From the NCBI GenBank assembly GCA_016281775.1, contig JAEEJH010000044.1, positions 1 to 32,772 of the forward strand: a DNA stretch of 32,772 nucleotides. Reading direction: 5' to 3'. Under the pieces are notes generated by a model. That model was not told where the DNA came from. It was given only the letters and a program-made list of their open reading frames with translations, and searched no databases. A program made the position numbers and the translations under genes. The DNA is from Clostridiales bacterium (GTDB taxonomy: Bacteria > Bacillota > Clostridia > Oscillospirales > CAG-272). Shown here in pieces: positions 7,658 through 32,772 of this stretch. How positions within the stretch are numbered: position 1 is the first letter of the stretch; each line of letters opens with the position of its first letter.

Positions 7658-10600
7658 ATGCGCGGATTTTCTATAAAATTATTGAGTGTAATTTTGATAT
7701 CGTCTATGCTTGCCGGTTTTATACCCGGCGCGGCGTCGGCTTTTGCTTTCGGCGTTCAAGATTATGAAAAGGCAGAAAGTGTCGTAAAAGACAATGCTGA
7801 TCTTGACGCCGGAATACAAACCCGCGCTGAAAAATTAAGCGAGCGGATACCGGTCTTGCCGGGTCAGCAGATACCCGGCAACTGTACCGTGATCGACGAT
7901 CCTGTTTACGGTCACGTCGTCGGCTATGAATTAAAAAAGGGACATACCCTCTGTATAAGTGACGACAGTTATGAAGCGCTTGATTTTCTGCGGTACTGGG
8001 ATGAAAAAACGAGCCTTAAAAACAAAACGCTTTCTGTTCTCGGCGACAGTATCAGTACGTTTGCCGGTTACGTGCCGACGGCTGACGGGTACAATCTCGA
8101 GCATCTTTCAAGATATCCGCAGGACAATCTTCTGACAGACGTAAATGAGACGTGGTGGATGCAGCTTGTCGACCGCCTCGGCGCGAGGCTCGGCATAAAC
8201 GACAGCTGGAGAGGCGCAACCGTAAGCGGCGCGCATCCGGTTACGACCGGAGCGACCGGCGAAGACGCCGCGATGTTCAATTTACAGCGAATAAAGAATC
8301 TCGGCGCGAACGGCACGCCGGATGTGATCGTTTTATTCGGCGGATCGAACGATTACGCGCACGTGTCGAAACTCGGCTCGTTCGACGCCGCTTCGGCTCC
8401 GACAGAACCGGACTTTTCGGCTGTCAAATACGATAATCTTGCAGACGGTTACGTTGAGACGCTTCTGCGGTTCAGATATTTCTATCCCGACGCTCTCGTT
8501 ATCTCCGTTTTGCCGGGCGTGACGAAAAGTTATTATTCAAACGATAAGCTGGCCGCGGGCAACACTTTACTGAAACGTATATGCGATCATTACGGCGTGC
8601 CTTACGTCGATCTGTACGAAAGCGATCTTACGGTCGGCATGCTGCCCGACGGCATTCATCCGAACGTCGAGGGAATGGACGTTATTACGGACGTTCTGAT
8701 CGATCTGATCCGCACGATACCGGTAAAACCCGGTGAAAACACCGTTTATCCCGTTTCTCATACGCTTACAAACGCCAAAGCGTCTTTGAGCTACTATAAA
8801 GGCGTGACGGAAGGCGCGGCGTTCGCCGAAACCGTCACGGGTAAGGACCTGAGCGTTACGGTCATGATGGGCGGCAAAGATATAACCGCAAACTGTTACG
8901 CAGACGGCGTTATAAATATACCCGCCGTCACGGGAGAAATACAGATAACCGTGACCGGCACAAACGATATTTTTGAAGGTCACCTCTCCGCTCTGCCGGA
9001 AAATATCTGTGCGGGGGTAAACCTCTGGAGTATTCTGCCGCACGATCCGAAATATTACTCGCCGAATCAGGGCTGGGGTTACACGACCGTACCGGCTCCG
9101 TCCGTCACGTTTGAAATACAGCCGGGCGAGAAGATATACGCTTCTTCGTTCGGCAAGATCGGAGAAAACGGCAGCGACAAGCACAGCGGTATCCGCGTGA
9201 CGTTTTTCAGCGATAACGGAGTTCTCGTCAGTCTCGATCCCGGCGCGATCTATTCTGAATTTGAGCAGAACGGCTTTATCACCGCACCGGATGGCGCGAA
9301 ATACGTCAACGTTCCCATGTGGGGCGACAATGCGGAATGGGAGCTTTATCTGCCCGGCAGAGGCCACGATTTCGGCGGCGAAGCGCACGGAGTCTGCAGT
9401 ATCTGCGGCAAAGGTCTGTTAGAAATGCTGTACGACGACAGGCTCGACGTGTCGGATAAAGAAGTTTCGATAATCGACGCGGGAACTCCGACGTCTTATA
9501 AGGCCGGCTCCGGCGGCAGTACGCCGGATGACGCGGTCATATGTCTTGACAGCGGAAAGCTGATCGCCTGCGGCATCGGTACAGCGACGGTTTCGATAGA
9601 CGGAACGGTATATACGGTCAATGTTACGGCGGCGCCGATCTCGCTGTTTATGATAACCGGGCACAGCATCGGCGCGGGGGTCAAAGGCGACGCGTCGCTG
9701 TCCGCGCTCTGCCCCGACGGTCAGGTATACAGCTCGTTCGGGACAAACAATCTGCCCGCCGCTGTTTCCGGGCTCGGCATCGGATTTGCCGCGGAAAACA
9801 AACCTCCGAAGATATACGCTCTAAATAAGGGCGGAGGCGGAACGGTCGGCGAAGGCGGCGGCCTCGGTCTGTACTGGAACAGGCTGACCGGAGAAAAAGT
9901 CTGGATAATCAACGTTGCCGTGGGCGGAACGTGCCTCAAAAACTGGCTGCCCGAAACGACGGCTTACGCTAACGCCGTAAGTCAGTATAAGCGAGCCGCG
10001 CAGATACTCAATAACGAGATCGCGGCGGGTCATTATACGCTTTCACACACAGGAGTGATATATCACAGCGCGGCGAATTACTCATATCAGAACGTGGAGT
10101 TTACGGACGAGGATCTTCAAACGTGGTTCTCCGAGTTCTGGGGCGGCTTGAAATCCGAGCTTGACGCCGATATAAACGGCGACGGAAAAGGCGACGCACC
10201 GGAATTCTGCGCTTTCGTACCGATCTGGACTAAAAGCGCAATGTATACTTACAATACCGACAAACCGGCGACGTATTATATGTCGGCGTCGGCGGAATAT
10301 CCCGATATGTTCACCGCTTCCGTCTGCTGCCGCGACTGGCTCACGGACGGCGGCGTTGCAGATAGCTTTCCGACGCCGGACTATACGATGCAGAACGGGA
10401 CGGAGCCCGACCGTCCACTGACGTTTTCGGAAGTCTTCGCGTCGGACAGAGTCCATCTGCAACAGATCAGCTATAACGCTCTCGGCGAAGATATAGCCGC
10501 TGATATATACCGCCGTATTTACGGAAGCAACGGTTTGACTTCATTTTCGCTTATGCATACGGACGGCGTGACCGGGGTCTCCGACTCGGTAAGTTTTGCC

Positions 10601-13600
10601 TGCGGTGAAAGCCTTACGCTCGTTCCGGTTACTGAGCCCGTAACGGTATCGTCTCTGCGGTTCGAAGCTTCCGGCACTGTCGAAATAGTTTATCCTCTTA
10701 CGGTGATCCCTAAGCATAACGGAAGCGGAATGCTGAACGTTTATGACGGAGATACTCTGATCCGCAGCGTGCAGTTCGTCTGCACCGGTTTTGACGACCG
10801 TATCGATATGAGATACGACGACAGATACGACGTATCCGGTAAAGAAGTTACGATCATCGGCGCGGGAACCCCGACGTCTTACAAAGTAGGTTACGGAGTG
10901 ACGGAAAATACGCCGGACGAGGCTGTCGTGCGGCTTGAAAACAGCAAACTCATCGCCTGTGGTATCGGCGAGGCGACGGTTTCAATAGACGGAGTTGTAT
11001 ATACCGTCAACGTCAAATCGGCGCCGATCTCGCTTCTGCTTTTGATCGGTCAGAGCAATATGCGCGGCTCGGAAGGCAACGCGGATCAGTCGATAGTCTG
11101 CCCCGAAGGGCAGGTCTACGCGACTTACGGCGACGACCGCGGCGCTTCAAATACCGAATTCACGGTTTCTACGGCGCGTTATTTCGCGGCAAGCGCGCTC
11201 GCCGGCGAATACAGCAGCGTAAACGTTGAAGGCACGGCGGAGTGCCTTTCCGGCTATCCGCTTTACACGCTTTGCGAAGAAGGCGCCGGCAAAATGGGAC
11301 CCGACAGCGGATTCGCTTACGAATGGGTAAAAGCGACCGGAGAAAAGGTCTGGGTAGTCAACGCCGCGCACGGCGGCACGGCGATCAGCGCGTGGCAGAA
11401 AGGCGGCAAGGAATATAACGAAGCTCTGCTTCTGTTCACCGCCTGCCGCGAAACGCTTCAGAAAGAGATCGCCGCCGGACACTATACCCTCTCGCATATG
11501 GGTTATTTCTGGTGCCAGGGCTGCAGCGATGCGTCTCAGACGGCTGAATGGTATATCAACAAATTCACGGCGATGCATCAAAATCTCAAAGCCGACAATA
11601 CGTTCGATCACGATCTCGATCCGTCTACGCCGGATATAACGTTTGAATTCGCCGGTATCATACCGATACTGCACGGGCTGAATTCGTACAGAGCCGGCGT
11701 GTATAACGATCCGCTTGTAGGCGCTCATTACGAATCTTACAGGACGCTCACGTTCAACGGGCCGCGCGCGGCGCAGTATTTCATGTGCTCCGACCCGGAT
11801 ATGCCTGACGTTTATATGGTATGCGATATCGGCGCCGGCTGGATGCGTATGCCCGACGGCTCTGACGGAGTTGCCGCGTACTTTGAATCGCATTACGAAA
11901 ACGGCACGGTCAACTATCAGACGCAGGTGCCGCAGTCTGCTTCGTGGTATAAGCCGACGACTCCCGCCGCGGTACACGATACGATACACTACAATCAGAT
12001 CGGTTACAACGAAGTCGGTATAGAGTCGGCGAGAAACATGCTCATTCTGCTCGGCGTACTGCCCGATACCGAAGAAGAAACGACTGTAAAATTCGTAAAC
12101 TGGACCGGTTACGAGGAAGTTTCGGAGATCACGGCGAGAAAGAGCGCTTCATCGGAAACGCTGATCGTCCCGATTGTTTCTCCGTGTTACCGTTCCAAAC
12201 AGGTCACTTATACGGTAAGCGAAGGATTGAATTATTCTTACTACGATCTTACCGCTTCGTCATCCGACGTTACCGGTACGCTTACGGCGCACGGAGCCGA
12301 AGGTTTCGTTTCGGTCGTACCGCGCGAATACAAAACTTTCCGCTTTGAAACGGATAACGGAAGTTTTATAAGCGTCGGCGAGACGGAAAACAAAACGTCT
12401 TTCGTGTCGGGCGGTATGGATTCCGGCGTGTTCACTAACGCGCGGATCGCGCTTTACGAAAGTGTAATGCTCGATCACGACCAAAGTTGGGCGCTCGAAA
12501 TAAAGATGACCGGTCCGTGGTATTCCGACAGTATGCCGAAGCTCAAAAAACTGCTTAGCGCTGACGGCGCGGCTTCTACGGTCGGAGCGTATAACCTGAT
12601 AGTAGGCGGAAATAACAGCAGGATATGGCTCGGTTATTATAACGGCACGACTCACGTCGGCTGCGGCATCAACCTCGCCGAATACGGAATAAGCATGTCC
12701 GACACTCATATTTACCGGCTGTATAATCAGGTAAACGAAGACGGTACGAATCAGATACTGCTTTACGTGGACGGGCAGTTCGTCGCTCCGATGACGCGCT
12801 ATATAACCGGCGACAACGGAGACACAGGCACGGAATCGCAGATGCTCTGCGGCGTCGATCTTCACTTCGGATATCTCGGTGCGGTCAACTATCCGCTCGA
12901 CAACGGTTCGATAGAATATCTGCATATAATCGAATCCGGCGCGGATGAAAACACGCATATCCATGATTTCGGCACGTGGCAGACCGTTACGCTTCCGTCC
13001 GCCGAAGGACCGGGGACCGACAGACGCGAATGCTCGCTTTGCGGACTTGAACAGACCCGCGCCGTTGACGGCGTATGGCAGAAATACGCTCTGTCGGATC
13101 ATTTGCAGCAAATGCCCGAATACGTCTGCCGCGATCTAAACCTCTGGGCTGTTCTGCCTCACGACACGTACTATTTTGCAAGCGGCAGAGCGTGGGGAAC
13201 GCATTCTTCGGGCACCGTACATTCGGTAACGATACCGATCATCCCGGGTGAGCGTATATACGCTTCGTCGTTCGGCAAAGCCGCAGAAAACGGTCACCCG
13301 ACGTCAAACGGCATACGCACCACGTTTTTCGATATTTACGGTATACTCAAGACCTACGAACCGTCGCAGGTCTATGCTGAATTCAGCAGCAACGGCGGTT
13401 ACATTACTGCGCCCGAAGGAGCCGCGTATATAAATATCGCGATGTGGACGGATACCGACGAATGGGAGATATATCTGCTTGACCGCGACCACACGTATTT
13501 TACGACCGTTACCGAACCGACCTGTACGGAAGGCGGCTTCACCTCCCACATCTGCGGTTCATGCGGTCAGGGAGATAAATACGATTATACCGAAGCGACG

Positions 13601-16600
13601 GGGCATACCGTCGTTAACGATCTCAGGATCATGCCCACGAACGCTAAGAACGGATTTACCGAAGGCAGTCACTGCTCTGTTTGCGGCGAAGTATTCGAGG
13701 CTCAGCAGATCATACCGGCTAAGGGTTACGACTGGATGACCGAAGACGGGAAGTTCAAGGTTATGTTCATCGGCGGAAGCTATTCCGAAGACGCGACGAA
13801 TTCCGGTCAGGGAATGACGACGAGCCTCCTGCTCGACGCGCTTCAGGCTCTGCTCGGCGACGATATAGAAATAACGGTAGGTCTTTGCTATGCCGGTGGC
13901 AAAGCGATAGCGTGGCACGCCACGCAGGCCGAAAGAGACACGAAGATATATTCTCTGCGCATAATAACGACGGGCGGTACGTGGAATAACGTCGGCAAGT
14001 ATACCTCCGCCGAGGCTCTTTCCTGGACCGATTGGGACGCCGTGGTACTTCAGCCCTCTCAGGCGGAGGCGAGAAACGGCGTAGACAGCAACCGCAACGG
14101 CGACAGCGAAGACGAAAAGTTCTACGACTACGACGCGTCGGTACCTTATATGCTCGATCACATCTCCGCATATGCTCCGCAAGCGGAAATATACTACTAT
14201 GAGCTATGGGCGACAAATAAGAACACGGAGATAAATACGGGTCTTTCGGCGTACAACATGATCGCTTCGGTCACGCTCGACGCCATGCATTATATTGGTA
14301 CGAATAATTCATACGTTTTCTCCGACGCGGTACCGGTAGGCGCGGCGATACAGACGGCGCGCACTACGTATCTGACGCTGCTTAACTATAATCAGGATGA
14401 AACGATAACCTTGGAGACCGACCCGCAGTTCGGCCTGCAGCGAGACGTAAGCCATCTGAGCTTCAACATCGGACGCTATATCGCGGCTATGACGTTTGCC
14501 GAAACGCTCATACCGGAAGAACTTCGCGTCGAAGGGTATTCTCTGCCCCCGACCAGAGTGACCGAATCGGTAGGCGTTTTGCCGCGTGAATACGGGGAAA
14601 TCGCCCGGGAGGCGATCCGCCGCGCTGTGAGCCGCTGGCACGGTGCTGAACAAACGCTGACCGTACTGCCGATAGAAGGATACGAGACCGACCCGACGCC
14701 GGGCACGGCCGAGGCTTTGTCGGGATACGTCTATACGGTATGCCGTACAGATTCTTCGGAAAAACTGCTTACGTTTATAAAACATGTCGTAGGCGAAAAA
14801 TTACCGGAAGATTATCACGTTGAAAAAGTTGAGATCGAATACAGCCCGATACCGGAAGCCGATCCGCTGTACAAAGTGACGATACGTTACGGATATACGT
14901 TCGCCTCATTTTACGCATCGGTGATCGTCGCCGATCATTCTTATGAAACGGAGATAACGCTTCCGACCTGTACGGAACAAGGCTTCACTACGTATACGTG
15001 TACGCATTGCGGTTTCACTTACGTCGGTTCGTATACCGGCCCGCTCGGGCATGATTACACGTCGGCAGTTACCGCTCCGACCTGCACAGAGCAAGGCTAC
15101 ACAACATATACCTGCTCGCGCTGCGGAGACAGTTATGCGGATAATTATACAGATGCGCTTGGGCACAACTTTGAAAACGGTATTTGTACTGTTTGCTCCG
15201 TCGCACAGTGGGATACCGACGGCGACGGCGTGCTGGAAATTCTGGCTATCGGCAACAGTTTTTCAGAGAATGCGTTGAGAGTCGCGTATCAGATAGCCCG
15301 CGGTCTTGGTATTAAAAATATCGTCATCGGTCATCTTTACATCGCCGGCTCTTCGCTGAATACACATGCCACGAACGCTGTAGGCGATCTGGCAAAGTAC
15401 ACATACTACTATAACGACAACGGTTCCTGGGTCCAGACCGACAACTATAAGATAAGCACCGCTCTGGAATCACGCAGCTGGGACTACGTTTCCATGCAGC
15501 AGGTCAGCAAGTTAAGCGGTGTGGAAAGCACCTACAATGAAGATCTGACCGATTTGATCGCTTACGTAAAGGCCCGCTCCGATGCAAAGCTGGTTTGGCA
15601 TATGACATGGGCATATCAGCAGGATCCCACCCTTTATGGATTTGCGACCTATAATAAAGACCAGATGACCATGTACAACGCCATCGTTTCCGCAACTCTG
15701 AACAAGATCGTCACCAACAGCGACTTTGATTTGATCGTTCCCAACGGTACTGCGGTGCAGAATGCCCGCACCTCCCTTTTGGGTGACAATATCACTCAGG
15801 ACGGTTATCATATGAGTAACGACTACGGCTGTTATCTGACCGGTCTGATGTTCATAAGGACAGTCACCGGCTTGCCCGTGGATAATATCACCTATATTCC
15901 TTCAAATATGGATGAGCTGAAGATGGCGATCGCCATCGAATCCGTTAACAACGCCTATATAAACCCATTTGACGTGACGAATTCCATATACGTACATACC
16001 CACAGCTACACATCGACCGTCACCGACCCCACCTGCACCGAACAGGGATATACCACCTATACGTGCGCTTGCGGGGACAGTTATATTGACGATTACGTTG
16101 ACGCGCTCGGGCACGATTACGTTTCGACCGTGACGGAGCCGACGTGTACCGAAGCGGGATATACGACATACGTCTGCTCAAGGTGTGAAGACACTTACAT
16201 TGACGAGCATACCGACGCGCTCGGTCACGATTTCGGCGCGTGGTTACAGATTTACGCTCCGACGTGCGCGGCGGAAGGCAAAGACGAAAGAGAATGCGCC
16301 GTATGCGGTGAAAAAGAATACCGCGATACGAGAGCGGCGGGGACGGATGCTCTGATACAGGTATCCTCTTCTCTGCCGGACGGATATTTCACGGGCAAGA
16401 AGATCGTCTGCATCGGCGACAGTATAACCGCCGGAAGCGGCGCGACGGTCGGCATAAACGATTACGTGACCGTGCTCGGTCAGCTTCTGGGCGCGGATAT
16501 GACGCGGCTCGGGCTTGCCGGTTCCGTTATGTGCACCGGAGGTCATAAACCGTGCAACTACGAAAAGCTCGGAAAAATACCGGCTTACGCCGATATCGTC

Positions 16601-17929
16601 ACGGTATATATGGGCGTCAACGACTGGGATCACGCAAGATCCGGTGAGAACGGATATTACGGTTTGGGCGAACCGGGGACGGACGACACGACGACGTTTT
16701 ACGGAGCGCTCAAAATGTGGTGCGACAAGGTCGCCGAGCTCAAAGCTCTGCCGGAATACGAAAACACCGTATTCATATTCTGCACGCCGACGATAACGTC
16801 GTGGAACGTTCAGGTCACAAGCGAAAAGGACTGGGATCCGTTAAAGCAGAATCAGTGCGGATATACGCTGCGCGACTATTGCGTTGCGATCATGCAAGTC
16901 TGCGCGTCGTACGGCATACCGGTACTCGATCTCAACGTTTACAGCGGTCTGTATTACAACAGTTCAGACGACAACAACGCCGTTTCGCTCTATACCGACG
17001 GCATACACCCGAATCCTCAGGGTCACGCGATGATAGCGGCTGCAATATCAGAATTCCTCTATGATAATTATTCGTATGAAGCGCGCGAAACCGGCAATAT
17101 ACACACGTTCATAGCTGAAGATTTCGCGCCGACATGCACGGAACAGGGATTCAGATTTTACGTATGCTCAGACTGTCACTACTCTTACAAAGCCGAATAC
17201 ACCGACGCGCTCGGTCACGATTACGTTTCGGCCGTGACGGAGCCGACGTGTACCGAAGCGGGATATACGACTCACGTCTGTTCAAGGTGTGAAGATACTT
17301 ACGTTGACGAGCATACCGACGCGCTCGGGCACGATCTGATACGTCACGACGGCAAGCCGGCGAGTTGTACCGAACACGGTTGGAGCGATTATGACACCTG
17401 CTCGCGCTGCGATTTCTCCACTTACGAAGAGATACCTCCGGCGGGTCACTCGTACGGTCGCCCCGTATTCGTCTGGTCTGTCGATATGAGCTCGGCAAAA
17501 GCCGTATTTACGTGCGGCGTATGCGGCGATGAAACGGAGACAGAAGCCGAGATCAGCTCGCGTACGGTCGTGACCGAAGAACGCGAAAACGTAACGGTAT
17601 TCACCGCTTCCGTACAGTTCGGCGGCGTGACGTATACCGACGAAAAGCAGCGCGTCAATTTCGTCTACGGCGACGTTGACGGAGACGGAAAAACGGACGG
17701 AAAGGACCTTATAAGGCTCCGCAGATACCTCGCAACGTACGACGACGGCACCGGAAATTCTCCGACAGAGATATCGGACGGCGCCGACGTCAACGGCGAC
17801 GGCAGAGTCGACGGGCGCGACCTGATACGCCTGCGTAAATACCTTATGCAGATCGACTGTACCGGTTCCGCGTCTATACTGACAATCGCGATACCGCAAG
17901 CCGCGATCGGCTTGAAAAAAGAGCGATAA
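7658..17929 (+). CDS. Secreted giant multidomain protein with GDSL/SGNH, SASA-like, DUF4886-like, LamG-like and Cys-rich modules and a C-terminal type I dockerin
   Basis: N-terminal signal peptide; GDSIST...GGSND...DGIHPN; GQSNMRG; GNSFSENA; GDSITAG...GVNDW...DGIHPN; repeated PTCTEQGYTTYTCSRCGDSY units; GDVDGDGKTDGKDLIRLRRYLA / ADVNGDGRVDGRDLIRLRKYLM. Confidence 0.93.
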   Translation: MRGFSIKLLSVILISSMLAGFIPGAASAFAFGVQDYEKAESVVKDNADLDAGIQTRAEKLSERIPVLPGQQIPGNCTVIDDPVYGHVVGYELKKGHTLCISDDSYEALDFLRYWDEKTSLKNKTLSVLGDSISTFAGYVPTADGYNLEHLSRYPQDNLLTDVNETWWMQLVDRLGARLGINDSWRGATVSGAHPVTTGATGEDAAMFNLQRIKNLGANGTPDVIVLFGGSNDYAHVSKLGSFDAASAPTEPDFSAVKYDNLADGYVETLLRFRYFYPDALVISVLPGVTKSYYSNDKLAAGNTLLKRICDHYGVPYVDLYESDLTVGMLPDGIHPNVEGMDVITDVLIDLIRTIPVKPGENTVYPVSHTLTNAKASLSYYKGVTEGAAFAETVTGKDLSVTVMMGGKDITANCYADGVINIPAVTGEIQITVTGTNDIFEGHLSALPENICAGVNLWSILPHDPKYYSPNQGWGYTTVPAPSVTFEIQPGEKIYASSFGKIGENGSDKHSGIRVTFFSDNGVLVSLDPGAIYSEFEQNGFITAPDGAKYVNVPMWGDNAEWELYLPGRGHDFGGEAHGVCSICGKGLLEMLYDDRLDVSDKEVSIIDAGTPTSYKAGSGGSTPDDAVICLDSGKLIACGIGTATVSIDGTVYTVNVTAAPISLFMITGHSIGAGVKGDASLSALCPDGQVYSSFGTNNLPAAVSGLGIGFAAENKPPKIYALNKGGGGTVGEGGGLGLYWNRLTGEKVWIINVAVGGTCLKNWLPETTAYANAVSQYKRAAQILNNEIAAGHYTLSHTGVIYHSAANYSYQNVEFTDEDLQTWFSEFWGGLKSELDADINGDGKGDAPEFCAFVPIWTKSAMYTYNTDKPATYYMSASAEYPDMFTASVCCRDWLTDGGVADSFPTPDYTMQNGTEPDRPLTFSEVFASDRVHLQQISYNALGEDIAADIYRRIYGSNGLTSFSLMHTDGVTGVSDSVSFACGESLTLVPVTEPVTVSSLRFEASGTVEIVYPLTVIPKHNGSGMLNVYDGDTLIRSVQFVCTGFDDRIDMRYDDRYDVSGKEVTIIGAGTPTSYKVGYGVTENTPDEAVVRLENSKLIACGIGEATVSIDGVVYTVNVKSAPISLLLLIGQSNMRGSEGNADQSIVCPEGQVYATYGDDRGASNTEFTVSTARYFAASALAGEYSSVNVEGTAECLSGYPLYTLCEEGAGKMGPDSGFAYEWVKATGEKVWVVNAAHGGTAISAWQKGGKEYNEALLLFTACRETLQKEIAAGHYTLSHMGYFWCQGCSDASQTAEWYINKFTAMHQNLKADNTFDHDLDPSTPDITFEFAGIIPILHGLNSYRAGVYNDPLVGAHYESYRTLTFNGPRAAQYFMCSDPDMPDVYMVCDIGAGWMRMPDGSDGVAAYFESHYENGTVNYQTQVPQSASWYKPTTPAAVHDTIHYNQIGYNEVGIESARNMLILLGVLPDTEEETTVKFVNWTGYEEVSEITARKSASSETLIVPIVSPCYRSKQVTYTVSEGLNYSYYDLTASSSDVTGTLTAHGAEGFVSVVPREYKTFRFETDNGSFISVGETENKTSFVSGGMDSGVFTNARIALYESVMLDHDQSWALEIKMTGPWYSDSMPKLKKLLSADGAASTVGAYNLIVGGNNSRIWLGYYNGTTHVGCGINLAEYGISMSDTHIYRLYNQVNEDGTNQILLYVDGQFVAPMTRYITGDNGDTGTESQMLCGVDLHFGYLGAVNYPLDNGSIEYLHIIESGADENTHIHDFGTWQTVTLPSAEGPGTDRRECSLCGLEQTRAVDGVWQKYALSDHLQQMPEYVCRDLNLWAVLPHDTYYFASGRAWGTHSSGTVHSVTIPIIPGERIYASSFGKAAENGHPTSNGIRTTFFDIYGILKTYEPSQVYAEFSSNGGYITAPEGAAYINIAMWTDTDEWEIYLLDRDHTYFTTVTEPTCTEGGFTSHICGSCGQGDKYDYTEATGHTVVNDLRIMPTNAKNGFTEGSHCSVCGEVFEAQQIIPAKGYDWMTEDGKFKVMFIGGSYSEDATNSGQGMTTSLLLDALQALLGDDIEITVGLCYAGGKAIAWHATQAERDTKIYSLRIITTGGTWNNVGKYTSAEALSWTDWDAVVLQPSQAEARNGVDSNRNGDSEDEKFYDYDASVPYMLDHISAYAPQAEIYYYELWATNKNTEINTGLSAYNMIASVTLDAMHYIGTNNSYVFSDAVPVGAAIQTARTTYLTLLNYNQDETITLETDPQFGLQRDVSHLSFNIGRYIAAMTFAETLIPEELRVEGYSLPPTRVTESVGVLPREYGEIAREAIRRAVSRWHGAEQTLTVLPIEGYETDPTPGTAEALSGYVYTVCRTDSSEKLLTFIKHVVGEKLPEDYHVEKVEIEYSPIPEADPLYKVTIRYGYTFASFYASVIVADHSYETEITLPTCTEQGFTTYTCTHCGFTYVGSYTGPLGHDYTSAVTAPTCTEQGYTTYTCSRCGDSYADNYTDALGHNFENGICTVCSVAQWDTDGDGVLEILAIGNSFSENALRVAYQIARGLGIKNIVIGHLYIAGSSLNTHATNAVGDLAKYTYYYNDNGSWVQTDNYKISTALESRSWDYVSMQQVSKLSGVESTYNEDLTDLIAYVKARSDAKLVWHMTWAYQQDPTLYGFATYNKDQMTMYNAIVSATLNKIVTNSDFDLIVPNGTAVQNARTSLLGDNITQDGYHMSNDYGCYLTGLMFIRTVTGLPVDNITYIPSNMDELKMAIAIESVNNAYINPFDVTNSIYVHTHSYTSTVTDPTCTEQGYTTYTCACGDSYIDDYVDALGHDYVSTVTEPTCTEAGYTTYVCSRCEDTYIDEHTDALGHDFGAWLQIYAPTCAAEGKDERECAVCGEKEYRDTRAAGTDALIQVSSSLPDGYFTGKKIVCIGDSITAGSGATVGINDYVTVLGQLLGADMTRLGLAGSVMCTGGHKPCNYEKLGKIPAYADIVTVYMGVNDWDHARSGENGYYGLGEPGTDDTTTFYGALKMWCDKVAELKALPEYENTVFIFCTPTITSWNVQVTSEKDWDPLKQNQCGYTLRDYCVAIMQVCASYGIPVLDLNVYSGLYYNSSDDNNAVSLYTDGIHPNPQGHAMIAAAISEFLYDNYSYEARETGNIHTFIAEDFAPTCTEQGFRFYVCSDCHYSYKAEYTDALGHDYVSAVTEPTCTEAGYTTHVCSRCEDTYVDEHTDALGHDLIRHDGKPASCTEHGWSDYDTCSRCDFSTYEEIPPAGHSYGRPVFVWSVDMSSAKAVFTCGVCGDETETEAEISSRTVVTEERENVTVFTASVQFGGVTYTDEKQRVNFVYGDVDGDGKTDGKDLIRLRRYLATYDDGTGNSPTEISDGADVNGDGRVDGRDLIRLRKYLMQIDCTGSASILTIAIPQAAIGLKKER
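16100..16231 (+). repeat. 132-bp intragenic direct repeat, copy A
   Basis: Manual alignment to 17204-17335 gives about 8 mismatches in 132 bp. Confidence 0.85.
17204..17335 (+). repeat. 132-bp intragenic direct repeat, copy B
   Basis: Manual alignment to 16100-16231 gives about 8 mismatches in 132 bp. Confidence 0.85.
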
Positions 17930-24598: not shown

Positions 24599-26665
24599 TT
24601 ACTGCTCGTCTTTCTTAGCGGCGAGAGCTTCTTTTGCTATCTTGTCAGCGTTTGCGGCGGGTACTTCTTCATAGCGGATGAATTCTATGGTGTACTTGCC
24701 TCTGCCCTGCGTCATGGCGCGGAGAACGGTCGGATAATCGGCTACTTCGGAGAACGGTACTTCGGCTTCAACTACCTGATAGCCCTTCTTCGCCGCCTGG
24801 TTGATACCCATGACTCTGCCGCGCTTCTTGGTGATCGTACCCATTACGTCGCCTATATAGTCTCCGGGAACGGTAACTTTCATATCGCCGATCGGTTCGA
24901 GTATGATCGGGCCGGCTTTGACCATACCTTCTTTATAGGCAAGTCTTGCGGCGAGTTTGAACGACATTTCGGACGAGTCGACTTCGTGGTAAGAACCGTC
25001 GTACAGATCGGCTTTGAGGCCAACCATCGGGAATCCGGCGAGAACGCCTTCCTGCATGGCTTCTTCAAGACCTTTGATAACTGCGGGATGGAAGTTCTTC
25101 GGAACGGAACCGCCTACGCAGGATTCGGTAAATTCAAGACCGTTGTCGCCGGGAGCGAATCTGATCTTGACGTCGCCGTACTGACCGTGACCGCCGGACT
25201 GTTTCTTATGTTTGCCCTGTACGTCGGATCTGCCCTTGATGGCTTCTTTGTAAGCGATCTTCGGAGCGGACGTATCGACGGATACGCCGTATCTCGTTTT
25301 GAGTTTGGAGAGCGTTACGTCTGCGTGTATATCGCCTGCGGCGGTGAGAACGAACTGCTTCGTATCGGGGTTGTTCTCGAAGCGGAGCGTGAGGTCTTCT
25401 TCGCAGAGTCTCTGAATGCCCTGGGAGATCTTTTCTTCATCGCCCTTTGCTTTCGGTGCGACCGCTATTCTCATACAAGGCTCGTCCGTGACGATCTTCA
25501 CATACGGCAGAGCCGCGGGAGCGGCTGAAAGCGTATCGTTCGTATTGACGTTTGCGAGCTTCGTTGTAACGCCGATATCGCCGAATTCGATCTCTTCGAC
25601 TTCTTTCATATCTTTACCGCAGATGGTGAAGATATGACCGAATTTCTCAGTCGTGCCCTTTTCGGGATTTTTGAGAGAAGTATCGCGTTTGAGCGAGCCG
25701 CTCATTACGCGGAAGAACGACATTTTACCAACGAACGGGTCGGCTATGGTCTTGAATACGAATACCGAGGTCGGATCCGACTCGGAGAGAGTGACCGTTT
25801 TAACCTCTTCGCCGTCGATGACCTTCGCTTTGTTCGCGACTTCGGGCGACGGGAAATAATCGGATATCTGATCGAGCAGAACGTCGACGCAGTTGAGCGT
25901 TGCCGCCGCGCCGCAGATAACGGGAACGATATCACCGCTGTTGAAGCCGATGTGTATCGCTTCGACCGCTTCTTCTCTCGTAACTTCTTCTTCCATAAGT
26001 ACCTTTTCCATAAGCTCTTCGCTCGTGACGGCTATGGATTCAAGCAGTTCGTTTCTGTATTTCTTCGCCGTTTCGACAAAGCTTGCGGGGATTTCGGCTT
26101 CCTGATGCTTGCCGTCTTTGTCGTAAACGTATTCGCGCATATCGATAAGATCGAGGAATCCGACGACCTTGCCGCCGTCGATCATCGGTATGACTATCGG
26201 GCAGACGGTGGAACCGAATTTTTCACGCAGATCGTCGAAAACTCTCTCGAATTTTGCTTCGGGATCGTCGAATCTGTTTATAAAGAACGCCTTCGGAATG
26301 CCTCTTTCGGAAGCGCGCTCCCATGCAAGCTCGGTACCGACGTCGGCGCCGGATTTACCGTCGACAACGATGACCGCGCTGTCGGCTACGCTGACGCCTT
26401 CGGCGACTTCGCCGTAGAAATCAAGATAACCGGGAGTGTCGATGAAATTGATCTTGGTGTTTTTCCAAGTAATGGGTGCGACCGCAAGCGAGATCGAAAA
26501 ACCGCGCTTTATCTCCTCCTTATCGTAATCAAGAACTGTGTTTCCGTCGGAGATCTTTCCGAAACGGGAGGTCGCTTTCGTCATAAAAAGCATAGCCTCG
26601 GCAAGCGTTGTTTTACCGTGGCCGCTGTGGCCGACGAGGCAGACATTGCGGATGTTTTTTCCCAT
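24599..26665 (-). CDS. EF-G-like translation GTPase paralogue
   Basis: 688 aa; GHSGHGKTT, RGFSISLAVAPITW, DTPGYLDFYGEV, NRFDD; domain IV/V segments SGGHGQYGDVKIRF and MGTITKKRGRVMGI. Confidence 0.9.
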   Translation of the reverse strand: MGKNIRNVCLVGHSGHGKTTLAEAMLFMTKATSRFGKISDGNTVLDYDKEEIKRGFSISLAVAPITWKNTKINFIDTPGYLDFYGEVAEGVSVADSAVIVVDGKSGADVGTELAWERASERGIPKAFFINRFDDPEAKFERVFDDLREKFGSTVCPIVIPMIDGGKVVGFLDLIDMREYVYDKDGKHQEAEIPASFVETAKKYRNELLESIAVTSEELMEKVLMEEEVTREEAVEAIHIGFNSGDIVPVICGAAATLNCVDVLLDQISDYFPSPEVANKAKVIDGEEVKTVTLSESDPTSVFVFKTIADPFVGKMSFFRVMSGSLKRDTSLKNPEKGTTEKFGHIFTICGKDMKEVEEIEFGDIGVTTKLANVNTNDTLSAAPAALPYVKIVTDEPCMRIAVAPKAKGDEEKISQGIQRLCEEDLTLRFENNPDTKQFVLTAAGDIHADVTLSKLKTRYGVSVDTSAPKIAYKEAIKGRSDVQGKHKKQSGGHGQYGDVKIRFAPGDNGLEFTESCVGGSVPKNFHPAVIKGLEEAMQEGVLAGFPMVGLKADLYDGSYHEVDSSEMSFKLAARLAYKEGMVKAGPIILEPIGDMKVTVPGDYIGDVMGTITKKRGRVMGINQAAKKGYQVVEAEVPFSEVADYPTVLRAMTQGRGKYTIEFIRYEEVPAANADKIAKEALAAKKDEQ

Positions 26666-26839: not shown

Positions 26840-27955
26840 TCATTGCGGCGCTTCCTCTTCGGTTTCCGGAAAACCGTAAACGGATCTTTTGAGCCCGAGC
26901 ATATTTCCGATATCCGCTCCGGGCGCCGAAACGCCTTCACCGTTTACGATACCGTACGTTCCCGACGCCATTTTCGAAACGAGTTCTCTGTACTCGCCGG
27001 CGTTGAAGCCGGTGAACCGGTCGAAAGCGTTTCCGTTTGAATCGCTGTTCACTTTCGTCGGAAGTCCCGTTCCGCCGTTATCCTTGCCGTAAGCGGTGAC
27101 TTTCCCGCCGTATTCGGAAAATCTGTTTTCAAAATACGCCGTCACTATCCGGTTTACGACGTATTCATAGTTTTTGACCGCAGACGTTATCACCCTCTCG
27201 GAGTAATACCTTTTATCCGTATAAGAACCGACGAGCCTGCCGTTTTTTTCTTTTGCGGCGTCGGATACCGGTTTAAGCGTTCCGTCGCCTTCGGTGAGTA
27301 TGACGTCGACTCCGTCCGTATACATTTCTTCCGCTTTTGTTTTTATACTTTCCGCGCTGTCGTAATCCTTGACGAAATACGCTTCGTAATTAACGTCGAG
27401 ATCGCGTTCAGCCGCGGCTTTATCGGCGCCCTGAATAAATCCCGCAAAACAGTTTTCTCCGCTCCCGATGAAGCCTAACGCGGTTATACCGTCCGCGACG
27501 AGAGCGTATCCGGCGGCAAAGCCCGCGTCTTTTTCGTTGAATACGGCGCAAGCCGTGTTCGAAGCTATATAAGTCACCGTACCCGATTCGTCACGGCTCT
27601 GTCCGTCAAGCAAAACGAAGCAAACGTCCGGATATTCCTTCTGAGCTTTATTGCAGACCGTTTCAAACATCTTTCCCGATAATACGACTATTTCGGCGCC
27701 GCCCGAAACGGCTTTTGCGACGGAATCGAACAGTACCGACGCGTCCTCCTTAGACGGCTTATAATAAGCGCACGATACGTTATGCTTTTCCGCGTACGCC
27801 GCCGCGCCTTCCCACGCGTAGCGGCTGACCGTGTTGCCGTCAATTTCGGAAACGTCGGTTATTACCGCTATTCTGTATTTCTGCCCCGAGCAGGAAACGG
27901 TCGAAAAAACGACGCAAAGCAAAACGATCGCGGCAATTATTCTTCCGAATTTCAT
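26840..27955 (-). CDS. BMP/PnrA-family substrate-binding lipoprotein
   Basis: Start set at 27955 (MKFGRIIAAIVLLCVVFSTVSCSGQK, lipobox), not the ORF-track 28249. Periplasmic-binding features: VITDVSEIDGNTVSRYAWEGA, GFIGSGENCFAGFIQGADKAA, DVILTEGDGTLKPVSDAAKEKN. Confidence 0.85.
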   Translation of the reverse strand: MKFGRIIAAIVLLCVVFSTVSCSGQKYRIAVITDVSEIDGNTVSRYAWEGAAAYAEKHNVSCAYYKPSKEDASVLFDSVAKAVSGGAEIVVLSGKMFETVCNKAQKEYPDVCFVLLDGQSRDESGTVTYIASNTACAVFNEKDAGFAAGYALVADGITALGFIGSGENCFAGFIQGADKAAAERDLDVNYEAYFVKDYDSAESIKTKAEEMYTDGVDVILTEGDGTLKPVSDAAKEKNGRLVGSYTDKRYYSERVITSAVKNYEYVVNRIVTAYFENRFSEYGGKVTAYGKDNGGTGLPTKVNSDSNGNAFDRFTGFNAGEYRELVSKMASGTYGIVNGEGVSAPGADIGNMLGLKRSVYGFPETEEEAPQ

Positions 27956-30678
27956 TTTTTCCTCCTTATCAGCCGACCGAGTCTGACCGTGACGGTACAT
28001 ACCGCCGGCGCGATCAGCGACAAAAGAATTCCCCAAAACGCCGTGCTGCCCGTCATAAACGAATCGAAGAAGGAATCGAATACGGCGGAAAGAGCAAGAT
28101 ATTCGGCGACGGCAAGGACCAGTATCACGAAAAGACCCGTCAGACCGGCTTTGAAACCGAAATCGCCGCGCGTGATCTGTCTGCAAAGCGCGAGCTGTGT
28201 GAGCATCAGCGCCGCAAAGCATACGACTCCCGTCTGCGCCGGAGTGCATCCGATAAGCAGCGCCGGAAGAGCCGACGCAAAGACCGACACAGAAGCGGCG
28301 GCGAAATACGTCAGCGCGGTCAATACGGGGCGTAAAGGCTTCTTTTCGGCTTTTTTCATCAGGTCCGCCGAAACAGACATTTCTCTGTTATCGGATAAAA
28401 ATACGGAGATTACGGCGAAAAGATCGAGTACCATTCCGGAAAAAAGCATCTGCGCGGGAGTCATAACGAAAAGTCCCGAAAATACAGCCACGGACGATAA
28501 AATGAAGCGAACGGCGTTCGATACCGCAAGGTAGACCGTTGCGTTATATATGTTGTTGCACGCTTTCCGCGACATCAGCACGGCTTTCAGAACGGCGTTT
28601 ATGCCGCCTTTGCCTTTCTTATCGGCGGGAGCTATCAGAACGTCCGAGGCGCGTTTGAGAGCCTCGCTCGTTTCCGGGACGTAATACCCGTTTTCATCTA
28701 TTTTCGGTTTTTCCTCGTGAATATTCGTCACGGCAAACGCCGTAGTGCTTTCGTCGTTCATAAGCGAGATATCGTACAGATGCCTGCCGACAACGCCGAG
28801 CTTTTCACCGTTTTCAACGAAAACGTCGTTCACGTATTTTTTCTGCGCGTTGCCGAGTCCGCAGAACAGTCTGTAAGAAAGCATTTTCAGCCCGAGGATA
28901 TTTATGTTGGAGGTCGCAAATTCGGGAGCGGTGAGCTTCTGAGTTTCGTCTCTGCAAATACCGATCTTTTCGGCGAGATTGACGCTCTGCCTCGTCATAT
29001 CGTCGCAGAACATGACCGTTTTCACGCCCATTGACGATAACGTCGCGACGGCGTCCGCCGTCGACGCCGGATAAGGCTCGCGCATTACGAAAAATCCTTC
29101 GAAGCAAAGATCGTTTTCACAGTAATCCGAGCTGTCGAGATTGTTGTATCTCGATATCTTCGAGGCTATCGCGGTAACGCGGTACGCGTTTCTTTCATAC
29201 GCCTCGGCACGGGCGATGAGATCTTTTCTGCTCTCGTCGGAAATACGCACGGGCGAACCGTTCGATAACTTCGACGTGCATCTGCTGACGATCTGCACCG
29301 CGTTGCCGCGCAGGCAGATCATATACTGCTCCTTATAAAGCACGAGCGATTCGTCGAATAATCTTTCGCCGTTTCCGCGGCGAAGCTCGAGCGGTATCAT
29401 CGAGGATTCGATTTCGGAAAGCCCGATGCCGAGCTTTTCGGCGGTCTCCGTAAAGGCGTCCTGCTCGGTCGTCTGCGCCGTTTGCTTTTTGGCGTGGCGT
29501 TCTTTGCCGCCGAGCGTTGAAACGCCGATATATACGGTACGGCGCAGTTTCTCCGCGTTTTCGGGGTCTATGTAAAGCTCGCGTTCGTTGGTGAAAACGA
29601 GCTCCGTCTCGATCTTACTGCGGCATATACCCGGGTTTTTAGGTATGAACAGGCAGGTCATATTTCTCATTCTTTCCACGGCGGAAAGATTCTTTACGAC
29701 AACGCCGGATTTATTCTTTTTGTTCTCCTCCGGATAAACGCCGAGCACGACGGCTATATACGATAATGCGGCGATAAGCTCGCAAAACGACGATACGGCG
29801 ATCGAAAGCGAAAGCATGAACGCCGAAAACACTGCGGAATTATCGTTTTTGATAAACGAAAGCATCGTTATGACGAAGACCGCGACGGTACAGCACACGG
29901 AATAGATCCGCGAAAATCTTCCGGCTTTGCTGAAAAGCGCGAGATCGCTGCTTTTGGCTTTTTTGGATTTTATGCCCCGGCGCTTGCAGAGCGTGAAATC
30001 GCCCACGTCGCAGGCGATGATCCTGCAGCTTCCCGCGGACACAGCCGAGCCGGCGAAAACCATATTCAACTGCCTCGACGCTTCAAGGCCGATGGTTTTA
30101 TCGGTAAAATCCGCGTCCTTTCTGCCCGTTCCGCCGGATATGTTCTTTTCGAGCACGAAAAGTCCGTTTTCATATACTATCCTGCCGTCGCAGGGTACGA
30201 TATCGCCTTCGGATATCAGCACGACGTCGCCCTGAACGATATCGCGCTGACTCACTCTTGAAGCGATACCGCTGCGTATCACCGTGACCTTCGGTATCGA
30301 ATACTCTTCAAGCGTCGCCGCCGCTTTCAGCGCAAGCGCAAGTATCAGAAAGACGGCGGAATATCCTAACACCGTAAGCGCGAGCGAAAACCACGACGTC
30401 GAATCCTTCAAAACGAATCCGGATATTATAAGCAGTACGGATAAAAGCCCCGCAAGTATCGGCCATACCGTTTTCGGAGCGTTGCCGCGCGAATCGGGAT
30501 CGTCTTCGAAAATGTCGTTTTTCGGGCTTGTGATCATTTTTTCCGAAAGAGTCTTTTCGTCGAGTCCGTTATCTTTATCGGTATTCAGTTTTTTACAGAG
30601 CCTGTCTGTTTCGTATCTGTACCAGTCGGTCTCTTTGACGTAGTCGTTGGACCGTACGCTTTCGAATTTTGTTTTCAA
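27952..30678 (-). CDS. P-type ATPase-like membrane protein with degenerate catalytic motifs (predicted pseudoenzyme)
   Basis: 908 aa intact ORF; Ca2+-ATPase-like layout including VVVKNLSAVERMRNMTCLFIPKNPGICRSK aligned to LVRKLPAVETLGxxTxICSDKTGTLTQNK; actuator-like, N- and P-domain-like regions and about 10 predicted TM helices. Confidence 0.85.
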   Translation of the reverse strand: MKTKFESVRSNDYVKETDWYRYETDRLCKKLNTDKDNGLDEKTLSEKMITSPKNDIFEDDPDSRGNAPKTVWPILAGLLSVLLIISGFVLKDSTSWFSLALTVLGYSAVFLILALALKAAATLEEYSIPKVTVIRSGIASRVSQRDIVQGDVVLISEGDIVPCDGRIVYENGLFVLEKNISGGTGRKDADFTDKTIGLEASRQLNMVFAGSAVSAGSCRIIACDVGDFTLCKRRGIKSKKAKSSDLALFSKAGRFSRIYSVCCTVAVFVITMLSFIKNDNSAVFSAFMLSLSIAVSSFCELIAALSYIAVVLGVYPEENKKNKSGVVVKNLSAVERMRNMTCLFIPKNPGICRSKIETELVFTNERELYIDPENAEKLRRTVYIGVSTLGGKERHAKKQTAQTTEQDAFTETAEKLGIGLSEIESSMIPLELRRGNGERLFDESLVLYKEQYMICLRGNAVQIVSRCTSKLSNGSPVRISDESRKDLIARAEAYERNAYRVTAIASKISRYNNLDSSDYCENDLCFEGFFVMREPYPASTADAVATLSSMGVKTVMFCDDMTRQSVNLAEKIGICRDETQKLTAPEFATSNINILGLKMLSYRLFCGLGNAQKKYVNDVFVENGEKLGVVGRHLYDISLMNDESTTAFAVTNIHEEKPKIDENGYYVPETSEALKRASDVLIAPADKKGKGGINAVLKAVLMSRKACNNIYNATVYLAVSNAVRFILSSVAVFSGLFVMTPAQMLFSGMVLDLFAVISVFLSDNREMSVSADLMKKAEKKPLRPVLTALTYFAAASVSVFASALPALLIGCTPAQTGVVCFAALMLTQLALCRQITRGDFGFKAGLTGLFVILVLAVAEYLALSAVFDSFFDSFMTGSTAFWGILLSLIAPAVCTVTVRLGRLIRRKK

Positions 30679-32772
30679 GACTCACCTTTTATTATTATTT
30701 CGGAATTTTCGATATCCGCCGTGATCTTTCCGGGCATTTTACCTAAGGAATCGATCAGAAGCTCGGCTACCTTGTCTTCAACGTTCTTTTCTATGAATCT
30801 TCTCATATTACGCGCTCCGAATTTCTTCGAATACGATTTTTCGACTATATAGTCGCACAGGGCGTCCGTATATACGAATTTTGTATTCTTCTCGGCAAGA
30901 GCCGCTGAAAGATCGGAAAGCATAATGCGAACTATGCGTCTGAAATCGTCGCTCGAAAGCGAGTTGAACGTTATCACCTCGTCTATGCGGTTGATGAATT
31001 CGGGACGTAAGAATTCGGTGAGTGCTTTTTCGGTCTTGGTCTCGTCGACTCTCTTTTCGTCCGTTCCGAAGCCGGCGGGGGCCGTTGTGAAGTTGGAGCC
31101 GGCGTTTGTCGTCATGACTATGACCGTATTTTCGAAATTGACTTCTCTGCCCTGCGCGTCGGTTATCCTTCCGTCGTCAAGGATCTGCAGAAGGATGTTC
31201 AGCACGTCGGGATGAGCTTTTTCTATCTCGTCGAACAGTACGACCGAATACGGCTTTCTTCTGATCTTTTCGGTAAGCTGACCCGCTTCGTCGTAACCGA
31301 CGTAACCGGGAGGCGAACCGATTATCTTCGATACGGAGTGCTTTTCCATATATTCCGACATATCGAGTCTGAAAAGCGCTTCCGGCGAGTCGAAAAGCTG
31401 AGAAGCAAGCTGTTTTACGAGCTCGGTCTTGCCGACGCCGGTAGGACCTGCGAAGATGAACGAAACGGGTTTTCTCTTGACCGACACGCCGGCGTATTTG
31501 CGTTTTATCGCGGCGACGACGGCGGAGATTGCCTCGTCCTGCCCGATGATGCGGCGGCGAAGCCCCTCGTCAAGCTTTTTGATGCGCTCGAACTCGTCCT
31601 CGGTTATATTGCCGGTAGGTATGCCGGTCCATATTTCGATAACTCTCGCCAGATCCCCGACGGTCAGACGCACGCTGTTTCTCTGCTCTTTCATTGAATC
31701 GAGATCCGCCTGATAACGCATCTCGTCGCTTTTGAGCGTTGCGAGCTGTTCGTAACGCTGACGGCGTTTATCCTCTTCTTCGGGCTCAGGTAAGGCTTCG
31801 AGCGCCTCGCGCGCTTTTTTCGCTTTTTCGAGCAGATCGCTCTTTTCCGCGTACTTGTCGACCACCGGTGTGTTCACGGCGACGTAAGAAGCCGCCTCGT
31901 CTATAAGATCGATCGCTTTGTCGGGCAAAAATCTGTCCGTTATATAGCGCTCCGAAAGACGTACCGCTTTTTCGGCTATCTCTTCGGTGATGATCACGCC
32001 GTGATATTTTTCGTAATACTCTTTTATTCCGCAGATGATCTTGACCGTTTCGTCTATCGACGGCTCGTTGATCACTATCGGCTGGAAGCGGCGTTCGAGC
32101 GCGGAATCCTTTTCGATATATTTGCGGTATTCGCCGAGCGTGGTCGCGCCTATAACCTGAATCTCGCCGCGTGAAAGAGCCGGCTTCAGGATATTCGCGG
32201 CGTTCATACTGCCCTCGGCGTCGCCCGCGCCTACTATGGAGTGCACCTCGTCGATAACGAGGATTATATTGCCTTCTTTCTTGATCTCTTCGATAAGCCC
32301 CTTCATTCTGCCCTCGAACTGTCCGCGGAACTGCGTACCGGCGACGAGAGCGGTAAGGTCGAGCACGAACACCTCTTTATCCTGAAGCTTATACGGGACC
32401 TCTTTTTTGACGATGAGCTGTGCGAGCGCGTCTGCAAGCGCGGTTTTACCGACGCCCGGCTCGCCTATAAGGCAGGGGTTGTTCTTCTGGCGGCGCATAA
32501 GGATCTGTATCATCCTCCGCAGCTCTCTTTCTCTGCCGATTATCTTATCGAGCCTGCCTTCGCGGGCGGCGGCGGTGAGATCCTTGCAGTAATCGTTCAG
32601 GAATTTGCGTTTGGTCACTTTTTTATCCTTCTGATCCTGGACGCCTGCGTTTTGCTGCTGTTTGCCTTTGGCGCCGTTGAGCTCAGCCGAGATCTTGCCG
32701 AAAAGCGATTTGAAATCTATCGCGGGAGCGTTGTTTTCCTCGTCGCCGCCCATGGAGGGCTCGTCGTTATCG
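30675..32772 (-). CDS. ClpC-like AAA+ unfoldase (5' end probably outside the window)
   Basis: Two AAA+ modules: [80 protein letters not shown]. Frame is open upstream of the ATG at 32753 ([11 protein letters not shown]...). Confidence 0.92.

Follow-up and report, generated by a model that had tools for sequence, protein, structure and literature searches.

Contig JAEEJH010000044.1 of a Clostridiales bacterium (assembly GCA_016281775.1; order Oscillospirales, family CAG-272) encodes a full-length homologue of P2-type ATPases that no longer has the residues of the phosphorylation cycle. It is best explained as belonging to an old family of P2-type ATPases without catalytic activity that is kept under purifying selection in one family of gut bacteria and occurs sporadically in two others. 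P-type ATPases are among the best-understood membrane machines, and to our knowledge all described subfamilies are defined by the phosphorylated aspartate. The window analyzed here, 32,772 nucleotides in length, is the whole contig, which is one of 183 in the assembly. The gene in question, whose product we call the pseudo-pump, and the codons on which the argument turns are the following.

27952..30678, (-) strand: pseudo-P-type ATPase of 908 aa that starts with TTG; the A, P and N domains and about ten membrane helices are kept, catalytic residues are lost
29641..29643, (-) strand: Pro346 codon; the equivalent residue of SERCA is the phosphorylated aspartate (D351)
29779..29781, (-) strand: codon of Glu300, the retained glutamate of membrane helix M4 (PEGL motif), first residue of a charge triad
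28507..28509, (-) strand: Arg724 codon (M5), equivalent to SERCA E771; arginine or lysine in 76 of the 77 distinct members of the window's family
28423..28425, (-) strand: Asp752 codon (M6), equivalent to SERCA D800; aspartate in 76 of the 77 distinct members of the window's family

The frame is open throughout its 908 codons on the minus strand, in agreement with an earlier interpretation made from the letters alone (the sequence-only reading). Pfam E1-E2_ATPase (PF00122) matches the protein with an E value of 1.2e-20, no match to the Pfam Hydrolase domain was obtained in the same scan, and NCBIfam models for P2-type pumps cover residues 20-637 with scores far below their cut-offs. Within the PDB, the sequence matches the Listeria Ca2+-ATPase LMCA1 best (6zhh, phmmer E value 6e-26). 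Judged by these comparisons, both the resemblance to P-type ATPases and the catalytic loss, which is common to 88 distinct homologues, are far beyond chance.

Alignment of the protein with the intact P2 pump of the window's own genome (MAFFT) and with 6zhh (phmmer) gave the same register, in which Pro346-Lys347 sit on the Asp-Lys of DKTGT. The sequence-only reading had aligned PKNPG with DKTGT and placed proline at the phosphorylated position, with the codon coordinates listed above, and this assignment is correct, as are the further losses that it had listed, i.e., SGG for TGES (G183 occupies the position of the glutamate), RGNAV for KGAPE and GRHLYD for GDGVND. Its statement that PEGL reads FCEL was out of register by one residue. 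It is C299-E300-L301-I302 that lies on PEGL, and the M4 glutamate (SERCA E309) is present. The M6 aspartate (SERCA D800; D752 in the window protein) is retained as well. Among the homologues, the aspartate of TGD (D627) is often retained, and the second aspartate of GDGxND (SERCA D707; D636) remains D or E in most members. The notion that every catalytic site has been lost is thus accurate for the nucleophile, the dephosphorylating glutamate and the first aspartate of GDGxND, but does not extend to the membrane site, which is remodelled rather than erased. A DKTG string does not occur anywhere in the window protein. With the phosphorylated aspartate, the TGES glutamate and the first GDGxND aspartate gone, a normal phosphorylation cycle is ruled out, and the sequence makes it very probable that the protein does not perform ATP-driven transport.

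The substitutions are lineage-wide. We compared 88 distinct dead sequences (95% clusters) with 25 intact pumps; 77 of the former stem from the window's family (f1), ten from a second (f20) and one from a third family (f17) of the same bacterial order. Aspartate occupies the phosphorylated position in all 25 intact pumps but in only one of the 88 dead sequences, an f1 member in which the motif is degenerate (DREGA). Proline is found at this position in 51 of the 77 f1 members, the others having S, E, R, N and further residues. The TGES glutamate is retained in 8/77 and the first aspartate of GDGxND (D703) in 4/77 f1 members, and Thr353 is mostly lost too. None of the homologues examined carries an intact DKTGT at this locus. 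The membrane core of f1 presents a different picture: the M4 glutamate is present in 72 of 77 members, the acidic M5 ligand (SERCA E771) is replaced by arginine in 70 and by lysine in six, N796 is glycine in 74, and the triad of M4 Glu, M5 Arg/Lys and M6 Asp is complete in 72. In f1, catalytic residues have thus decayed freely while the charge triad of the membrane core is fixed, a natural experiment on the parts of the fold that matter when ATP is not turned over. A built-in lysine or arginine in M5 is known from the H,K-ATPase and from P3 proton pumps. M7-M10 and the N domain diverge fast among members.

At the same sites, f20 mostly has Asp for the M4 glutamate, Asn for the M6 aspartate, hydrophobic residues for E771 and Gly for N796. 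Some f20 members (e.g., L151, L156 and L162) retain KGAPE-like residues of the nucleotide site, and Lys684 of the P domain is replaced by tryptophan in all ten. As far as the sequences can tell, f20 is the outcome of a different route of decay.

Within the window's genus, the gene is present in 12 of 12 genomes. In the family as a whole, about 88 of 196 genomes yielded a match at E <= 1e-33, and the fetched matches around that level were all dead copies except for intact pumps of two genomes, G069 (2e-33) and G120 (3e-32). Nine further members from f20 emerged from the genome scan, and one more from f20 as well as the f17 member were found via the gene after clpE. The pseudo-pump is missing from some of the sampled f20 and f17 genomes and from two f1 genomes of one genus, where unrelated genes follow clpE. 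For members outside the order, 292 genomes from across the class were scanned; the best hits, as far as they were inspected, were all intact pumps, although strongly diverged members could escape such a scan. The named members are all metagenome-assembled genomes (RGIG10334, AS04akNAM_119, RUG13077, SIG672 and Lapin-013 bin19). Two proteins encoded behind clpE, L235 (689 aa, much of the nucleotide or N domain gone) and L232 (1160 aa, many inserts), are nearly unrecognizable in sequence and have retained the position after clpE. In one group (L183, L187, L189 and L058), the pseudo-pump is extended at its C terminus by about 300 aa; in the two of these 1.2-1.3-kaa members that were scanned, no Pfam domain was found in the extension.

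The ratio of non-synonymous to synonymous substitution rates (dN/dS, Nei-Gojobori) of the pseudo-pump amounts to 0.08-0.15 for most pairs, and to 0.14 and 0.26 for its two halves when compared with a near-identical genome. The expectation that dN/dS would lie below 1 is therefore borne out by close pairs over the whole range of 0.08-0.26. In the three genome pairs that allowed comparison with both genes, the intact P2 pump gave 0.03-0.05 and ClpE 0.00-0.08, so that the value of the pseudo-pump is two to four times that of its intact paralogue in the same genome pairs and yet far below 1. The dead pump evolves faster than the intact one and is nevertheless clearly constrained. A tree of 43 sequences (IQ-TREE, LG+C20) separates 28 dead from 15 intact proteins by a single branch with a support of 100 in the Shimodaira-Hasegawa-like approximate likelihood ratio test, and the quick search together with long branches (f17 and parts of f1) leaves the inner order unsure.

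An AlphaFold2 model of the window protein (mean predicted local distance difference test score 84.4, predicted template modelling score 0.85) was calculated from 52 sequences, its own and others taken from loci of the public genome scan, most of which encode intact pumps. The best 50 Foldseek matches include P2 ATPases, namely Ca2+, Na+/K+, H+/K+ and Mg2+ pumps, matched over the full length. The closest shapes are E1 states: SPCA1 in CaE1 (template modelling (TM) scores 0.76/0.77), LMCA1 in E1-Ca (0.74/0.78) and SERCA with phospholamban (0.76/0.71). The fold check proposed along with the sequence-only reading has thus returned a P2-type fold that matches pumps in the PDB, and since the alignment behind the model is rich in pumps and biases it, the result denotes compatibility with this fold and not a measured state. 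The pseudo-pump may be locked in an E1-like state. With lineage-wide substitutions, dN/dS well under 1 and a fold that is kept, the interpretation as a selected pseudoenzyme and not a pump is the best reading, and for the window protein we regard it as almost certain.

The gene next to the pseudo-pump, the operon around it and the Glu-Arg-Asp triad had no part in the sequence-only reading and came to light in the follow-up. The neighbour is the following.

30675..32771, (-) strand: ClpE-like double-AAA+ unfoldase, first ~72 codons past the contig edge, adjoining the pseudo-pump gene upstream

Its stop codon TGA overlaps the start of the pseudo-pump gene by four bases (TTGA), and AAAGGTGAG precedes the TTG. 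Both Walker motifs and the ClpP-docking loop are kept. Full-length orthologues have an N-terminal zinc domain with four cysteines (CSRC...CxxC), a pair of AAA domains and an xGF-type ClpP loop; the window copy lacks the zinc-domain part at the contig edge, and the missing part is located on contig C131. When compared with solved structures, the protein matched ClpC (9e-195) and ClpB best, while ClpE (29hb) followed at 5e-184; its domain make-up, as predicted from sequence, is that of a ClpE-like protein. In all 70 pseudo-pump loci with a readable flank, the gene directly upstream is clpE, in the same orientation (the count includes two fragments at contig ends and one case interrupted by a frameshift), compared to none of 18 intact P-type loci. 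ClpP was found in all ten genomes tested. A ClpE orthologue exists in essentially all genomes of the order and the dead pump in part of them only. The pseudo-pump gene is probably co-transcribed with the ClpE-like gene. Candidate ClpE residues specific to genomes with a dead pump were found and discarded, as they track phylogeny.

Taken together, we favour, tentatively and with slightly less than even confidence, an ancient pseudo-pump locked in an E1-like state that serves ClpE-ClpP as its receptor or adaptor in the membrane as the best explanation overall. In f1, the M4 glutamate, the M5 arginine or lysine and the M6 aspartate would form an internal salt bridge, i.e., a built-in counter-ion, that would hold the protein in a single E1-like shape. 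As a platform in the membrane, the dead pump would then recruit or regulate ClpE(-ClpP), membrane or envelope proteins would be presented for unfolding and degradation, and the ATP-driven work would fall to ClpE rather than to the P-type fold. The parts of this proposal differ in strength. A functional partnership of the pseudo-pump with ClpE is rather probable, an adaptor or receptor role as the form of that partnership can be assumed only with reserve, and the complete picture of ion pumps turned into a membrane-embedded receptor for ClpE-ClpP, in which a dead P2 fold frozen by a Glu-Arg-Asp salt bridge serves as a system for the extraction of membrane proteins, appears doubtful. Several points weigh against it. 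The intact pumps in the AlphaFold alignment draw the model towards a pump fold, the pairing of the M5 residue with Glu and Asp is deduced from the corresponding positions in SERCA, and the triad is absent in f17 and f20. Many genomes carry ClpE without the dead pump. Furthermore, the gene order truA-DUF5711-cvpA-(pgsA)-clpE is old and conserved even where the dead pump is absent; it spans many families of the order (L283-L302), with pgsA forming part of the cluster outside most of f1. The dead pump therefore either joined an old cluster at its 3' end or was lost repeatedly, its adjacency to clpE is partly inherited, and the operon may hold a different partner for it, CvpA, or none at all. Finally, a 2026 study describes clpE as typically monocistronic, though not as a defining trait, and found that Enterococcus ClpE-ClpP works without an adaptor (PMC13125188). 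The same work leaves room for adaptors to special ClpE substrates (PMC13125188).

The conserved cluster is also what speaks for a passenger of the operon, that is, a selected membrane protein unrelated to ClpE, for example a scaffold for CvpA or phospholipid functions, that owes its position to the old gene order. We consider this unlikely, because none of the genomes searched yielded a dead pump without ClpE beside it, and the two frames overlap in the window. A cation sensor or passive channel that binds or leaks a cation via the acidic residues of M4 and M6, and that reports to or serves the envelope functions encoded in the operon (CvpA, PgsA) with no involvement of ClpE, would account for the retention of these residues while the ATP site decays and for the presence of cvpA and pgsA in the same operon; yet Arg or Lys in M5 of 76/77 f1 members and glycine for N796 should neutralize and deform the site, and in f20 D800 is replaced by Asn and E771 by hydrophobic residues, which renders this idea less likely still. 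The acidic residues often present at D627 and D707 could point to an active ATPase with an alternative nucleophile, but there is no conserved Asp or Glu on the loop after the first strand of the P domain (Pro in 51/77 f1 members) and the TGES glutamate, Thr353 and D703 are mostly lost too, so that we rate it as very improbable. Even less credible is a pseudogene or recently decayed pump. The missing catalytic motifs, the fast divergence of M7-M10 and the N domain and extreme forms such as L235 (689 aa) and L232 (1160 aa) would fit decay. On the other hand, frames are open in practically all members, dN/dS is 0.08-0.26, the loss is common to >70 genomes and the triad is conserved; recent pseudogenization is ruled out by dN/dS and the breadth of the family.

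Known systems can be compared with both the dead pump and its unfoldase. With the P2-type ATPases (SERCA, SPCA/PMR1, LMCA1 and MgtA), the window protein shares domain layout, fold, M4 glutamate and M6 aspartate; its family differs from them in the lack of the DKTGT aspartate, the TGES glutamate and the first GDGxND aspartate, in the Arg/Lys of M5 and in the glycine for N796. The nearest precedent we found is the degenerate P4-ATPase-like domain of the Plasmodium guanylate cyclase PfGC-beta, which likewise lacks most signature residues and is tied to an active enzyme; it is eukaryotic, of P4 type and fused to the cyclase, whereas the proteins described here are bacterial, of P2 type, free-standing and paired with an AAA+ unfoldase (PMC6592433). 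The partner resembles Enterococcus ClpE, of the ClpE-ClpP system of Firmicutes, in its four-cysteine zinc domain, two AAA domains, middle domain and GF docking loop (PMC13125188). Unlike clpE as described there, typically monocistronic and with a product that is adaptor-independent for quality-control substrates, clpE is here a late gene in a conserved operon-like order that is followed by the dead pump (PMC13125188). A precedent for an adaptor gene beside that of its Clp ATPase is provided by mcsA and mcsB, which adjoin clpC (PMC13125188). The ClpC adaptors McsA/McsB and MecA are soluble and of unrelated folds, whereas the pseudo-pump is a predicted ten-helix membrane protein for which gene linkage suggests an adaptor role.

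We found no description of a free-standing bacterial family of P-type pseudo-pumps in the searchable open-access literature, most subscription papers lying outside the search. There, P-type ATPase pseudoenzymes gave no hit, and articles retrieved for inactive P-type ATPases, ClpE together with P-type ATPases, and loss of DKTGT contained nothing alike. Uncharacterized 'FUPA' families of P-type ATPases surfaced there, whose member motifs were not compared with those of the dead pumps. A free-standing, lineage-wide family that has discarded the catalytic cycle and keeps the fold under purifying selection implies that the P-type architecture has another use, and the fixed position behind ClpE offers a testable lead to it. 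If true, the partnership would give a partner in the membrane to a protease that has until now been regarded as solitary.

Downstream of the pseudo-pump, the window contains two genes whose linkage is confined to the genus.

26840..27954, (-) strand: Bmp/PnrA-like substrate-binding lipoprotein; its ATG (TAAGGAGGAAAAAATG) overlaps the stop codon of the pseudo-pump gene
24599..26665, (-) strand: elongation factor G-like gene, a downstream neighbour within the genus only

Recognizable relatives of the lipoprotein were seen only within the genus, and other genes follow the pseudo-pump outside it. The assembly forks inside clpE, with one upstream contig (C131) and two downstream versions, C75 (the window) and C123 (locus L006), which are 70% identical in the pseudo-pump, 93% in ClpE and 96% in the elongation factor. 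A duplicated pair of pseudo-pumps within one genome was considered and rejected, as C75 and C123 break at the same spot of clpE and a single contig with the missing start (C131) was found; the two versions probably represent two co-binned strains. Farther away, a plus-strand gene at 7658-17929 encodes a multi-esterase of 3423 aa that combines GDSL lipases with a sialic-acid-esterase-like domain and DUF4886, carries a type I dockerin at its C terminus and by its domain content is probably a giant cellulosome-type component.

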